A stretch of DNA of 51,372 bases from Planctomycetota bacterium (GTDB lineage: Bacteria > Planctomycetota > UBA1135), in contig RFGR01000022.1 of NCBI GenBank assembly GCA_003696625.1, forward strand, positions 1-51,372, read 5' to 3'. This document shows, in pieces, positions 2,874-10,790 of this stretch. The translations under genes and the position numbers were made by a program. How positions within the stretch are numbered: the stretch's first letter is position 1; the number at the start of each line of letters is the position of its first letter. The notes under the pieces were generated by a model. The model searched no databases. It saw only the letters and a program-made list of their open reading frames with translations, and was not told where the DNA came from.

Positions 2874-3771
2874 CTTCCAGCTCCCGCAGCGGCGCGGATT
2901 CGGGCGACGGCGTGGCTTCGGCGGCGGCGGTCGGCTCCGCCGCCGGCTCCTCGGCGGGCGGTTCGGGCGAGCGCTCGGGCTCGGCCTGCTCCGGCCGCAG
3001 GCCGAGCCGGCGGGCCATCTCCTCCGCCACCGCGGCGAAGTCGGCGGCGCCGCCCGATTCCGGCGCGTAGTCGAAGATGGTCAGGCCGTGGCTGGGCGCC
3101 TCGGCCAGGCGCACGTTCATCCGCACCAGCGTCGGGAAGAGCAGCGGACCGAAGTGCCGGTGCAGCTCCTGCAGCACCTCCCGCGACAGGTTGCGCTGCT
3201 TCTGAAACATCCCGACGACGATGCCGAGCAGGTCCAGGCCGGGGTTCAAGCGCCGCTTGACCCGCTCGATCACGTCCAGGAGCTGGGCCATCCCCTGCAG
3301 CGCGAAGAACTCGGCCTGAAGCGGGATGACGACGTGGCGGGAGGCCACGAGGGCGTTCAGCGACAACAAGCCGAGCGACGGCGGACAGTCGAAGAGGACC
3401 ACCTCCGGCGGCTCGGGAATCCGGCGGGCGTAGCCCTCGAGCGCGTCGCGAAGGAGGGTCTCGCGGCCGATCTCGGCGGCGAACTCGGTCTCGGCCCCGG
3501 TCAGGTCCAGGTTGGTCGGGGCGATCGTCAGGCCGGGCACACTGGTGGTCTGGACGACCTCCTCGAGCCGGTGGCCGGCGCCGAGCAGGGTGTAAACCGA
3601 AGGCTCGCCCGGTTCCGGCAGCCGGTCGAAGCTGATCGACAGGTGAGCCTGCGGATCGAGGTCGAAGAGCAGCACCCGGTGCCCGGACCGGGCGAGGGCG
3701 GCGCCGACGTTGGCGCAGGTGGTCGTTTTGCCGACCCCGCCCTTCTGGTTGATCACCGAGACGATCTGCAC
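2866..3771 (-). CDS. parA: Chromosome partitioning ATPase ParA/Soj
   Basis: MQIVSVINQKGGVGKTTTCANVGAALA deviant Walker A, VVLFDCPPSLGLLSLNAL, EAPSHGLTIFDYAP; Pro/Ala/Glu-rich C-terminal extension. Confidence 0.95.
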   Translation of the reverse strand: MQIVSVINQKGGVGKTTTCANVGAALARSGHRVLLFDLDPQAHLSISFDRLPEPGEPSVYTLLGAGHRLEEVVQTTSVPGLTIAPTNLDLTGAETEFAAEIGRETLLRDALEGYARRIPEPPEVVLFDCPPSLGLLSLNALVASRHVVIPLQAEFFALQGMAQLLDVIERVKRRLNPGLDLLGIVVGMFQKQRNLSREVLQELHRHFGPLLFPTLVRMNVRLAEAPSHGLTIFDYAPESGGAADFAAVAEEMARRLGLRPEQAEPERSPEPPAEEPAAEPTAAAEATPSPESAPLRELEAG

Positions 3772-3804
3772 GCCGCCGAGGATAGCGACGGGAGCGGCCG
3801 ATTC

Positions 3805-4764
3805 CTATGCCATGACCCGGAAAGCAGCCGCTTCTACAAGGATCCTGTCTTGATCCAAGGCCGCCTGCCAGGACGGGATCGCTTCCTCCAGGCGATCCAG
3901 GTCGAGGCCGAAGAGGGCGGCGGCGGCGACCAGGCCGAGGCCGTCCTGCTGCGGACCGTCGAGCGGCCGCAGGCCCTGAGCCAACGCCCGAAGGCGGGAG
4001 CCGCGGATCCCGTCGCGGTTGCGGAGGCTCCGGTCCACCCGGCGATGGAAGGCCTTGGTGCTGCGCCGGACCTCCCGGCGGAGCCGGCACCATGCCCCGA
4101 ACAGGGCCGGTTCCTCCTCCTGGACGGCCTGTTCCAGCTCGGCCAGGATCCGGTCGCTCGCGCGGTCCAGTTCGTCCAGGGCGGCGGCCAGGCGGACCGG
4201 CGGCGGCGGCGTCAAGGCGGCGCGGAGACTTTCCTCGCCGGCCAGGGCGGCCGCCGGCTCCACCCCGAAGCGGGCCAGCGCCTCGAGGTGGCGCGGTCCG
4301 AACCAGGTCGCCTCCGGCAGCGGCGGCGGTTCGCCGGCGGGCGGCGGGCCGGCGGCGCCGGCCGGGCGGGTCTCGACCCAGAGGCCGGCCGGCCCGAGCA
4401 GCTCGCGCCAGAGTTCGGCCTCGGCCGCGAGCGGCTCCGCGCCGGGCGCCGGCAGCAGGCGGTCCACCACCGCCGCCGCCTCGGCGGTCGGGGGCATCGC
4501 GTCCACCGCCGCCGCCGCCAGCGCGGCTCGACCGGCCGAATCGAAGCGGCCGTTCTCCGGACCGGGCAGGCGGACCGGATTGCCTTGGGCGTCGATCAGG
4601 AGCAGCTTGCGGTCGAGCGGCCGCAGCAGCTCCTCGTCCAGGAGCAGCACCGCCTCGGCGTCGCCGCCCCGCCGCCGGGCCTCGGCGAGCGCGGCCAGGC
4701 AGCCGTTGAGCAGCCGGAGCGGACCGCCCGCGAGCGACGGCGCGTGCCGGAAGAGGATCCTCAC
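3805..4764 (-). CDS. Uncharacterised protein resembling the C-terminal half of BshC (bacillithiol biosynthesis cysteine-adding enzyme)
   Basis: EATWFGPRHLEALARFGVEPAAALAGEE and a KAFHRRVDRSLRNRD...LRPLDGPQQD coiled-coil-like tail; GTG start overlapping the pyrF stop (GTGA). Confidence 0.45.
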   Translation of the reverse strand: MRILFRHAPSLAGGPLRLLNGCLAALAEARRRGGDAEAVLLLDEELLRPLDRKLLLIDAQGNPVRLPGPENGRFDSAGRAALAAAAVDAMPPTAEAAAVVDRLLPAPGAEPLAAEAELWRELLGPAGLWVETRPAGAAGPPPAGEPPPLPEATWFGPRHLEALARFGVEPAAALAGEESLRAALTPPPPVRLAAALDELDRASDRILAELEQAVQEEEPALFGAWCRLRREVRRSTKAFHRRVDRSLRNRDGIRGSRLRALAQGLRPLDGPQQDGLGLVAAAALFGLDLDRLEEAIPSWQAALDQDRILVEAAAFRVMA

Positions 4765-6454: not shown

Positions 6455-7704
6455 ACCGGCGTTCCCGGAGCGAGCCGGGTGAGCACCGAGTCGAGCAGCA
6501 CGAAGCCGCGGGCGGTGGCGCGCAACCGCTCGCCGGCCAGCTCGACCAGGCCTTCCCGCTGGAGCCGCTCCAGTTCCTCCGGCCAGACCCGGCGCGGATC
6601 GACACCGGCGATCCGCTCCACCCGCGGCAGCCAGACGCCTTCTTCTTCCAGCCGCAGCCCCATCATCAGGCAGTCGAAGGCGATGGTGCGAGGGTCCGGG
6701 CGCTCCCGCTCGGCGGCCGGATCGCGGCCGGCGAAGACCGCGGCCTCGTACTCCTCCGGGCGCTCGAGGTTGCGGCGGCGCTCGCCGTCGCGCCAGCCGG
6801 CGGCGCCGGCGCCGAGGCCGACCCAGTCGAGGCTGCGCCAATAGGCGAGGTTGTGTCGGCACTCCGCCCCCGGCCGGGCGAAGTTCGAGACCTCGTAGCG
6901 GCGCAGTCCGGCCTCCGCGCAGAGGCGTCGGGTCTGCTCGAAGAGTTCCAGTCGTCGCTCCTCGGGGTCGGCCGGCGGGAAGCGGCCGGCGTCGCGGGCA
7001 CGGGTGAGCGGGGTGCCGGGCTCGAAGCTCAGCTCGTAGCAGGAGAGGTGCTCGGGAGCCAGCGCCACCGCTCGGCCCAGGTCGGCGGCCAGGTCGGCCG
7101 GGTCCTGGCCCGGGAAGGCGAAGATCAGGTCCAGGTTCAGGCGCCGGAAACCGGCGGCCCGGGCGGCGGCGACGGCGGCCACCACCTCTTCGGGACCGTG
7201 CGCCCGGTCGTAGGCGCGCAGCACTTCCGGTCGAAACGACTGCACCCCGAGCGAGAGCCGGTCGGCGCCGTGCTCCCGCGCCGCCTGGGCGGTGGCGGCG
7301 TCGAGCGACTCCGGATTGGCCTCGATCGTCGTCTCGATCGAACCGCCGCGGAAGCCGGTGATCTCCGCCAGTCCGTCCAGCAGTCGGGCGAGTTCCTCGG
7401 CCGGCAGCAGGGACGGGGTGCCGCCGCCGAGGAAGACGGTCTGCGGCGCCAGCTCGGCGGCGCGGAGCCGGGCCTCGGCCAGGATCGCATCGACGTGCCG
7501 GCCGAGATCCTGCCCGCGCCAGGCCCAGGCGTTGAAGTCGCAGTAGCGGCAACGCGAGACGCAGAACGGCAGGTGCACGTAGAGCGAGACCCCGTGCTCG
7601 TCCAGGGACGGGCACGGGGCGGCGGCCGCTTCGGGCTCAGGCCGGGCGTCGCTTTCGCCGACGGGCGCGGAGGGGCTCGAGGATCTGGTCGGGCGGGACA
7701 CCAT
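6451..7704 (-). CDS. hemW: Radical SAM coproporphyrinogen III oxidase-like protein HemW (start uncertain)
   Basis: VSLYVHLPFCVSRCRYCDFNAW radical SAM CxxxCxxC, TVFLGGGTPSLL, ETTIEANPES, DRLSLGVQSF. Confidence 0.92.
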   Translation of the reverse strand: MVSRPTRSSSPSAPVGESDARPEPEAAAAPCPSLDEHGVSLYVHLPFCVSRCRYCDFNAWAWRGQDLGRHVDAILAEARLRAAELAPQTVFLGGGTPSLLPAEELARLLDGLAEITGFRGGSIETTIEANPESLDAATAQAAREHGADRLSLGVQSFRPEVLRAYDRAHGPEEVVAAVAAARAAGFRRLNLDLIFAFPGQDPADLAADLGRAVALAPEHLSCYELSFEPGTPLTRARDAGRFPPADPEERRLELFEQTRRLCAEAGLRRYEVSNFARPGAECRHNLAYWRSLDWVGLGAGAAGWRDGERRRNLERPEEYEAAVFAGRDPAAERERPDPRTIAFDCLMMGLRLEEEGVWLPRVERIAGVDPRRVWPEELERLQREGLVELAGERLRATARGFVLLDSVLTRLAPGTPV

Positions 7705-8506
7705 CGACGACGTAGGCGTGCAACTTGCGCAGGGCCAGCCGTTCGATCTGCCGCACGCGCTCGCGGGAGATGCCGAGCGCCTTGGCGATCGCCTCGAGGG
7801 TAGCGGGCTTCTCGTCGTCGATGCCGTAGCGCATCCGCAACACCGCCGCCTCGCGCTGGTCGATCAGGTCCAGGATATCCCGCAGCGTTTCGAGCGCGTC
7901 CCGTTTCAGCGCGATCTCGTCCGGCGGCAGGCGCTCGGCGGCGACGCCGGGGTGGTCCTCGGCGATGTTGTTCAGGATCTCGTCGCCGGTGCCGGTGCTG
8001 GTGGCGGTGGTCAGGGCCTGCTTCACGACCTTGACGTTGGCGGGCGACAGGCCGAGCTGGTCGGCGATCTCCTGGGCGGTCGGCCGCCGGCCGAGGGAAT
8101 GCTCGAGGTCGGCGGCGACCCGGCGCCACTTGCTGAGGATCTCGACCATGTAGGACGGCACCCGAACCGTCTTGGCCTGGTTGATCAGCGCCCGTCGGAT
8201 CGTCTGCTGGATCCACCAGGTGGCGTAGGTCGAGAAGCGGAAGCCGGCCTCGGGGTCGAACTTCTCGATCGCCTTGAGCAGGCCGAGGTTGCCTTCGGCG
8301 ATCAGGTCCGGCAACGCCAGGCCGCGGCCGGTGAAGCGCTTGGCGACGCTGACCACGAGCCGAAGGTTGGCGCGGATCATGTGCTCCCGCGCCTTTTGGT
8401 CGCCCTGCTGGACGCGGCGCCCGAGCGCGACCTCCTCCTCGGCGGTGAGGAGGGGCACCTGGTCGATGTCGCGCAGGTAGGTTTCGAGGCAGCGGTCGGA
8501 AGCGAT
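7637..8506 (-). CDS. RNA polymerase sigma-70 family factor (RpoD/RpoS-like, regions 1.2-4); apparent ATC start
   Basis: YLRDIDQVPLLTAEEEVALGRRV region 1.2, EGNLGLLKAIEKFDPEAGFRFSTYATWWIQQTIRRAL region 2, GISRERVRQIERLALRKL region 4.2; GGAGG 8 nt before ATC at 8506; in-frame TGA at 8512-8510. Confidence 0.92.
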   Translation of the reverse strand: MASDRCLETYLRDIDQVPLLTAEEEVALGRRVQQGDQKAREHMIRANLRLVVSVAKRFTGRGLALPDLIAEGNLGLLKAIEKFDPEAGFRFSTYATWWIQQTIRRALINQAKTVRVPSYMVEILSKWRRVAADLEHSLGRRPTAQEIADQLGLSPANVKVVKQALTTATSTGTGDEILNNIAEDHPGVAAERLPPDEIALKRDALETLRDILDLIDQREAAVLRMRYGIDDEKPATLEAIAKALGISRERVRQIERLALRKLHAYVVDGVPPDQILEPLRARRRKRRPA

Positions 8507-8660
8507 GGTTCAATCCTCCGGACGAACGTGGGACGGGGGGAGACGGGGGTTCGTTCCCGGCTGTCTTTTGCGGGTCGATTGCGCACGACTTGATTCTTTT
8601 CTCAGGTTTTTTCGGTCCCCGTCGCAGGAGGTTCGGCCGACCCGTCCTCGGGAACTGCGG

Positions 8661-8686: not shown

Positions 8687-10015
8687 ATGGATTCTTCGAC
8701 AACTGGGACCGACCGCCGCCGGCGCCGCCGCGTGATCTCGGTCGAGGAGTTCCGGCCGCTCCTGGCGGCCCGGGCCCAGGACTTCCTGAAGCTCGCCAAC
8801 GGGCTGTTCGAGGCCAGTCCGGAGCAGTGGAACCAGCGCCAGCTCTACCACCTCTACCAGTCCACCACCGACCTGGAGAGCTACCTCGACAACTACGGCG
8901 CGCGCGAGAACCGGACCTACTTGCCGATCCGGGAGCTGATCGCGATCGCCCGCTGGCTGTCGGTCGGGATGAGTTCCCTGGTCCACCTGGACTCCCGGCT
9001 GCCGAGCTACTCCTTCCCGGACCCGGCCTGGGTCGGAGAGCGCCTCGCCCCCACGGTGCGAACCAGCGCCCTGCGGCTCGGGGAGATGATCCTTCGTTCG
9101 CTCGAGGCTCTGCGGGAGACCTGGACCGAGACCGGCCTCTCTTGGCCGGACGGGGTGATGCGGGTGGATTCCCTGGCCGCCGCCGGGGAGACGGTCCGGC
9201 TGCCCCGGGATGCGGTCGATCAGGTCGGCAACGAGGAGAGCCGGGCCCTGGTCTCCCGGGCGGCCCTGGTCGCTTCCCGCTTCCTCCGCCTCCAGAAGCA
9301 CATGGCACGCTCCAACCCACGTCGGATCAATGGTTTGGAGCGATTGGAGGAGGTCGTCCAGGTGCACTGCTCGGAAGCCCAGAGCCGGCGCTTCGAGGCC
9401 CGGCTGCACAACCTCCAGAGCACCTATGACAGCCTGGTCGCCGGCAGTCCCGAGGAGGAGAAGCACCCTGTGCTTCCGCGGATCCGTTCGGCGGCCAGCA
9501 CCGCCTTCCACCTCTTCGAGGCCACCACGGCCCTGGTCCACCTCGACGAGCGCCACCGGCTGGACCGCTTCCGCGGCGCCGACGGGGAAGCTCTCCTGGA
9601 CCGGGAGGCCTTCCTTTCTATCGCCATAAATGACTGCTCAGTTATGGCTTATGAATGTATGACGAGCGTCGCCCCGGAGGCCGAGGCCTTCCTCGCCCAG
9701 GTCTCGGAGCGCTGCTCGCGGGTCTTCCGGGTGCCGGACGGGGTCTCCCTGCACGCCCGGCCGATCTCCCTGATCGTGTCGGTGGTGAACCACTACCGCT
9801 CGGCCGTCGAAGCCGAGATCGACGGCGACCGCTGCTCGGCCGCGAGCATCATGCAGCTTCTCGTCCTGGTCGGCGGCCACTCCTCGACCCGGGAGATCCG
9901 GTTCTACGGCGACCAGCGGGTCCTCGACGATCTCCAGGTCCTGTTCGAAGCTCGCCTGGGCGAGGACGGCCTCGACGGCCTGCCCGAATCGCTCTCCTAC
10001 CTGGTTCAGCGCTGA
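8687..10015 (+). CDS. HPr-domain phosphocarrier-like protein with large N-terminal predicted all-helical extension
   Basis: C-terminal VPDGVSLHARPISLIVSVVNHYRSAVEAEIDGDRCSAASIMQLLVLVGGHSSTREIRFYGDQ matches HPr; His356 and Ser387 are 31 residues apart, as are His15 and Ser46 of HPr. Confidence 0.85.
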   Translation: MDSSTTGTDRRRRRRVISVEEFRPLLAARAQDFLKLANGLFEASPEQWNQRQLYHLYQSTTDLESYLDNYGARENRTYLPIRELIAIARWLSVGMSSLVHLDSRLPSYSFPDPAWVGERLAPTVRTSALRLGEMILRSLEALRETWTETGLSWPDGVMRVDSLAAAGETVRLPRDAVDQVGNEESRALVSRAALVASRFLRLQKHMARSNPRRINGLERLEEVVQVHCSEAQSRRFEARLHNLQSTYDSLVAGSPEEEKHPVLPRIRSAASTAFHLFEATTALVHLDERHRLDRFRGADGEALLDREAFLSIAINDCSVMAYECMTSVAPEAEAFLAQVSERCSRVFRVPDGVSLHARPISLIVSVVNHYRSAVEAEIDGDRCSAASIMQLLVLVGGHSSTREIRFYGDQRVLDDLQVLFEARLGEDGLDGLPESLSYLVQR

Positions 10016-10046: not shown

Positions 10047-10790
10047 TCAGATCCCGTGGACCAGACGGTCACCCAGGATCTGGGGCAGGCCGGCCCGGCG
10101 GATCCTCTTCTGCTCCTCGGCGATGTTGTAGGGTGTGCGGAGCAGGCGGAAGCGGCGCGCCGGCAGCTCGTAGAGGCAGACCGGCGCCTGTGGGTTCTCG
10201 TCCCGGGGCTGCCCGACGCTGCCGACGTTCACCACCGCCCGATCCTGGTCCTCCAGGCACCAGTCGGTCTGGAAGTGCCACTCCAGCTCGGTCGCCCTCG
10301 GATGCTGGATGAAGTTCATCGGCACGTGGGTGTGACCACAGAAGCCGACCGGGGCGGCGAACTCGGCCAGCGAGGCCCGGGCCGCCGGGAAGCTCTGGAG
10401 GTAGTTGAACGCCTCCGGCTCCGGCAGGGAACCGTGGAAGACGCAGAACTCCGGGTCATCGATCCGAAGCGGCAGCTCGGCCAGGAAGTCGCGGTTCTCC
10501 GCCGTCAGCTCCTTGCCGGTCCACTCCAAGGCGGCCTGGGCATAGGGGTTGAAAGTCCGGGCGTCGATCCGGCCGAGCAGCGCCCAGTCGTGGTTCCCGG
10601 CCACGCAGCGGACCCCCGCCTCCCGGATGCGTTCCACGACTTCGTTGGGGCGCGGGCCATAGCCGACCACGTCCCCGACGCAGTACAACTCCGAAACCTG
10701 CTCCAGCTCCAGGACGGCCAGGACCGCCTGGAGCGCGGACAGGTTCGCGTGAAGGTCGCCCAAGACGGCGATCGTGCGGGTCGCGGGCAT
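10047..10790 (-). CDS. Calcineurin-like metallophosphoesterase (YfcE/MJ0936-like)
   Basis: VLGDLHANLSALQAVL, CVGDVVGYGPRPNEV, CVAGNHDWAL, GFCGHTHVPM, VVNVGSVGQPRD. Confidence 0.92.
   Translation of the reverse strand: MPATRTIAVLGDLHANLSALQAVLAVLELEQVSELYCVGDVVGYGPRPNEVVERIREAGVRCVAGNHDWALLGRIDARTFNPYAQAALEWTGKELTAENRDFLAELPLRIDDPEFCVFHGSLPEPEAFNYLQSFPAARASLAEFAAPVGFCGHTHVPMNFIQHPRATELEWHFQTDWCLEDQDRAVVNVGSVGQPRDENPQAPVCLYELPARRFRLLRTPYNIAEEQKRIRRAGLPQILGDRLVHGI

Follow-up and report, generated by a model that had tools for sequence, protein, structure and literature searches.

The protein encoded at positions 8687 to 10015 of the window, by which we mean the whole stretch of 51,372 nucleotides analysed here (contig C46 of a 3.04 Mb Planctomycetota MAG), raises the question of what an HPr domain does when attached to a long helical chain. 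The survey in PMC2405797 describes HPr as a small protein that acts on its own or as part of a fusion with other PTS enzymes, and the first-pass annotation of this gene proposed something different, namely a phosphorylation-controlled effector rather than a sugar carrier. The features of the gene and its product are as follows.

8687..10015, forward strand: gene of the 442-aa fusion of a helical domain and HPr (single open frame with ATG start; full-length orthologues in relatives)
8741..9703, forward strand: N-terminal all-helical domain, aa ~19-339, a new family (AlphaFold2 pLDDT 91, pTM 0.88; no convincing Pfam, NCBIfam or PDB match)
9719..9946, forward strand: HPr domain, aa 345-420 (PF00381, 30.8 bits; Foldseek TM(target) 0.82-0.84 against solved HPr)
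9752..9754, forward strand: codon of His356 in HARP, which corresponds to His15 (H, R and P invariant in 90/90)
9845..9847, forward strand: codon of Ser387, the Ser46 equivalent, in SIM (Ser in 79/90; otherwise T, A, Q, F, Y or a gap)

Domain architecture of the fusion protein

PF00381 (PTS-HPr) was the single Pfam family above cut-off in the protein, scoring 30.8 bits over aa 345-420 against a gathering score of 23 bits, and it was matched in all 70 fusion homologues scanned. NCBIfam returned HPr-type models only, and its EIIA/HPr fusion models aligned over their HPr part alone; no EI or EIIA domain was detected by Pfam over the whole chain. An AlphaFold2 model of the full protein, built with 70 homologues, had a mean pLDDT of 90.7 and a pTM of 0.82, and the order of strands and helices from E344 to H410-421 was HPr-like. 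Compared by Foldseek to the best four solved HPr chains, the predicted domain showed the open-faced sandwich of HPr and gave TM(target) values of 0.82-0.84 with an rmsd of 1.9 Å over 88-89 columns. His356 and Ser387 lie 31 residues apart, the same distance as His15 and Ser46 in the HPr sequences of E. coli and B. subtilis. The HPr core, the HARP histidine and the SIM serine described in the first-pass annotation are thus all present, in a domain that shares 27% identity with the canonical HPr of the same genome and 18-27% with the three stand-alone HPrs compared.

The remainder of the protein, annotated earlier as about 330 aa of helical sequence with no known motif, was modelled as ~335 aa of confident helices, residues 19-339 being almost entirely helical in the full-length model. 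Modelled alone, this domain reached a pLDDT of 91.1 and a pTM of 0.88. Its sequence had no match in the PDB up to an E-value of 10, its fold had none better than E 0.25, and Pfam and NCBIfam gave no convincing family, with isolated weak matches in single members. CHAD (6qva, probability 0.63) and CheA-P1 were considered as fold relatives and not accepted, the TM-scores being at most 0.35. Several of the invariant Glu, Asp, His and Arg residues of the domain are spaced i/i+4 along helices. The halves comprising aa ~50-148 and ~191-339 share the same motif register, which is suggestive of a possible internal duplication that we do not claim, as hhalign of the halves gave a P of only 0.06-0.08.

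Conservation of the fusion and the PTS of its host

Full-length orthologues were found in the family of the host and in much of its order. As a single query against the genome contigs the protein retrieved no relatives; an alignment-based search retrieved 187. A profile of the N-terminal domain identified orthologues of the fusion in 80 of 392 Planctomycetota genomes sampled across the phylum, and a plasmid search with the fusion gave no match. Strain Pla86, whose genome is complete (CP036296), also carries the protein. There was essentially one match per genome; where a genome had two rows, each aligned in part and to a different portion of the profile. Frames longer than 430 aa, with room for both domains, accounted for most of the matches. 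Shorter frames also occur (e.g. 331, 289, 271, 219 and 179 aa), and the short one in genome G282 is truncated because its contig, of 4288 bases, stops just after the match at 3360-4280.

In a phylum-wide alignment of 90 sequences, His356, Arg358 and Pro359 were invariant, and the position of Ser387 was occupied by another residue or a gap in 11 members. A distant class of ~525 aa reads FHVRP, carries an insertion of ~80 aa in its HPr domain and often lacks the serine, while HLRP, with Gln at the serine position, is seen in two proteins from another family. Ser has been lost in two lineages. Judged from this alignment, the histidine is under stronger selection than the serine.

The first-pass annotation had reported no EI, EII or HPr kinase (HprK) in the window, and the searches for EI, EIIA and HprK indeed matched other contigs or nothing. 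Elsewhere in the genome, contig C111 encodes an intact EI with the motifs GGRFSHG, GGDK, TNDL and CGEMAG, and three EIIA-2 domains are encoded on contigs C6, C169 and C11. The gene on C6 (ptsN-like) adjoins that of the canonical HPr, and the fusion is therefore not the general carrier. On C169 the EIIA-2 domain appears by eye to stand behind a helix-turn-helix in the same frame (LGVSPETLRRWARQG; L142 6357-7349, reverse strand). Neither the EIIC permease family PF02378 nor EIIA-Man (PF03610) was found in the genome. The PTS of the host looks like a regulatory, permease-less one as regards PF02378, similar to that described for Brucella (PMC2937029). The EI N-domain was detected in 60 of 62 fusion-carrying genomes, a co-occurrence that does not discriminate because it was equally present in the fusion-free ones (18/18). 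A second EI on contig C176 (L141 6689-8521, reverse strand) retains the phospho-His motif and has lost the GGDK, TNDL and CGE motifs of the PEP site and active Cys. A tie of the fusion to such degenerate paralogues by co-occurrence was rejected, since they occur in relatives both with and without it.

Searches with the C-domain and the N-domain of HprK found nothing in the host MAG, which is 90.5% complete, and among 60 relatives gave weak and partial matches in only three. B. subtilis possesses an HPr kinase. Because the same searches were silent in the B. subtilis control, absence of the kinase from the host genome is likely but not certain. E. coli HPr carries the same serine, yet the HprK searches give no match in E. 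coli. Phosphorylation of Ser387 by HprK as the means of controlling an effector, the serine half of the earlier proposal, is thus unsupported, as the searches detected no such enzyme in this genome and next to none in the relatives. The serine is correctly placed and kept in 79 of 90 sequences, but with its loss in two lineages added to the missing kinase domains we regard this route as highly improbable.

Genomic neighbourhood and the divergent sigma-70 gene

The fusion gene is flanked by two conserved neighbours.

7637..8506, reverse strand: divergent sigma-70 factor gene, regions 1.2-4 (Pfam; divergent in 83/87 loci)
10047..10790, reverse strand: convergent metallophosphoesterase gene (PF12850, 68.6 bits; synteny)

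The sigma-70 neighbour was correctly annotated, and parB was not, insofar as it was placed directly beside the fusion: the metallophosphoesterase comes first downstream, followed by parB. Many families share one gene order, in which hemW is followed by sigma-70 on the reverse strand, the fusion on the forward strand, the phosphoesterase on the reverse strand and parB on the forward strand, and in 83 of the 87 loci holding both genes the sigma-70 gene is divergent and at most 1.5 kb from the fusion, with a median distance of 182 bp. The adjacency is thus real, and a functional link between sigma factor and fusion is a possibility, no stronger because hemW, the phosphoesterase and parB are conserved too. 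With all neighbours and not sigma-70 alone maintained, the region from hemW to parB may represent ancient chromosomal gene order and not genes that work together.

For most members of the ~525-aa class the search of the surroundings revealed no sigma gene, and the neighbours in this class form no shared operon; a consistent operon partner was not found for the fusion in general, nor was an EIIA gene linked to it in the loci examined. In one family (L216, L217) the phosphoesterase gene is co-directional and directly downstream of the fusion. In L217, from genome G242, the two genes are separate, adjacent and co-directional, whereas in one genome of the same genus the frame of the fusion continues into the metallophosphoesterase to give 718 aa (L175 5877-8030, forward strand), which is either a weak hint of a link between the two proteins or an assembly error. 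A few bases 3' of one ~525-aa homologue lies a gene (L156 7488-8054, forward strand) for a protein of 188 aa which, judged by eye, looks like a member of the CYTH/class IV cyclases.

The sigma-70 gene itself appears to start at a conserved non-canonical AUU/AUC codon. In the window the apparent start is ATC at 8504-8506, with GGAGG at 8515-8519 and, from there back to the preceding stop, no in-frame ATG, GTG or TTG. Among the orthologues (in L053-L132, L162, L174 and L175), the 79 scored by pattern had 45 ATT, 28 ATC, 4 ATG, 1 TTG and 1 GTG as starts, eight more, some reading ATG, being unscored; in most cases a GGAG-type ribosome site stands ahead of the ATT or ATC codon. This predicted start recalls the non-canonical GTC start of sigR, which is repressed by IF3 (PMC5472188).

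Possible role of the fusion protein

Among the readings compared, an effector controlled by phosphorylation rather than a sugar carrier explains the data best, given the invariant H-x-R-P, the intact EI, the separate canonical HPr and the lack of PF02378. What was computed directly comprises the domain architecture, the HPr fold, the invariance of the phospho-site, the intact EI, the missing PF02378 EIIC and the lack of a detectable HprK. On balance it is probable that the fusion is a regulatory protein phosphorylated by EI, with the helical domain as a binding module. As a single-copy regulator of the permease-less PTS, it would receive phosphate from Enzyme I on His356 of its C-terminal HPr domain, the phosphorylation state of which would follow the supply of PEP. 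The N-terminal domain may bind a ligand or a partner, as sensor or effector, with E64, D68 and H100 and also H241, D248, R267, H285 and R289 as candidate residues of a ligand site, and its activity would change with HPr phosphorylation, both this coupling of the domains and the output being putative. Retained phosphoryl chemistry best explains why H356, R358 and P359 are invariant while the rest of HPr has diverged, even in the class with the ~80-aa insertion. Against the reading stand the presence of EI in fusion-free genomes too, an N-terminal domain lacking a homologue of known function, and the missing operon partner.

The intact histidine site and the three EIIA domains of the genome would also suit a specialised phosphocarrier, in which HPr passes phosphate to an EIIA-type protein, e.g. 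that on C169 with its apparent helix-turn-helix, and the helical domain selects the target or the timing. We consider this unlikely, however, as the canonical HPr already adjoins an EIIA-2 gene and the fusion is linked to none in the loci examined. Loss of phosphate carriage, which would leave HPr a purely docking or structural part, would fit the strong divergence of the domain from canonical HPr and the large insertion tolerated in one clade, but is very improbable in view of the active-centre His, Arg and Pro, unchanged in every aligned sequence.

The close and divergent sigma gene instead brings to mind an anti-sigma-type protein, with the helical domain binding sigma-70 and HPr acting as the gate, much as though HPr and Rsd of E. 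coli were joined in one chain. In E. coli, HPr in its unphosphorylated form associates with Rsd, an anti-sigma70 factor (PMC4598750; PDB 4xwj), and both systems combine HPr with a helical protein, here encoded next to a sigma-70 gene. In E. coli, however, these are separate chains, whereas here there is one chain, with a helical domain of no detectable Rsd homology and a putative sigma-binding role. Homology to Rsd/AlgQ was rejected, as hhalign against one Rsd sequence gave a P of 0.14 over 8 columns and no Rsd chain was among the 50 fold matches listed. With hemW, the phosphoesterase and parB conserved alongside, and most loci of the ~525-aa class devoid of a nearby sigma gene, the anti-sigma role seems quite improbable. 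We give little credence to its fuller form, a one-piece switch in which an anti-sigma regulator under its own HPr domain would make the neighbouring sigma-70 factor respond directly to PTS phosphorylation.

The EI-phosphorylated regulator that we favour differs from the described HPr proteins in its architecture. It has in common with the HPr/NPr/Crh phosphocarriers (PF00381) the fold, the His-Ala-Arg-Pro active centre and the position of Ser46, but these stand alone, whereas the fusion HPr is one domain of a 442-aa protein in a genome that encodes a canonical HPr as well. Multiphosphoryl transfer proteins (FruB, DhaM, EI-HPr-EIIA fusions) likewise hold HPr within a longer chain; their partners are PTS domains, in contrast to the helical domain, which corresponds neither to EI or EIIA nor to another PTS domain that is recognised. 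Our literature searches found no paper on a fusion of HPr to a helical domain; HPr itself is known, and the helical domain is previously undescribed. A single-copy fusion spread through the phylum, with a strict phospho-histidine and in a genome where no PF02378 permease was found, suggests that the PTS serves regulation in a way absent from the papers found. The protein, concrete and testable, most likely works as a switch responding to the flow of energy phosphate in the cell and not as a carrier of sugar.
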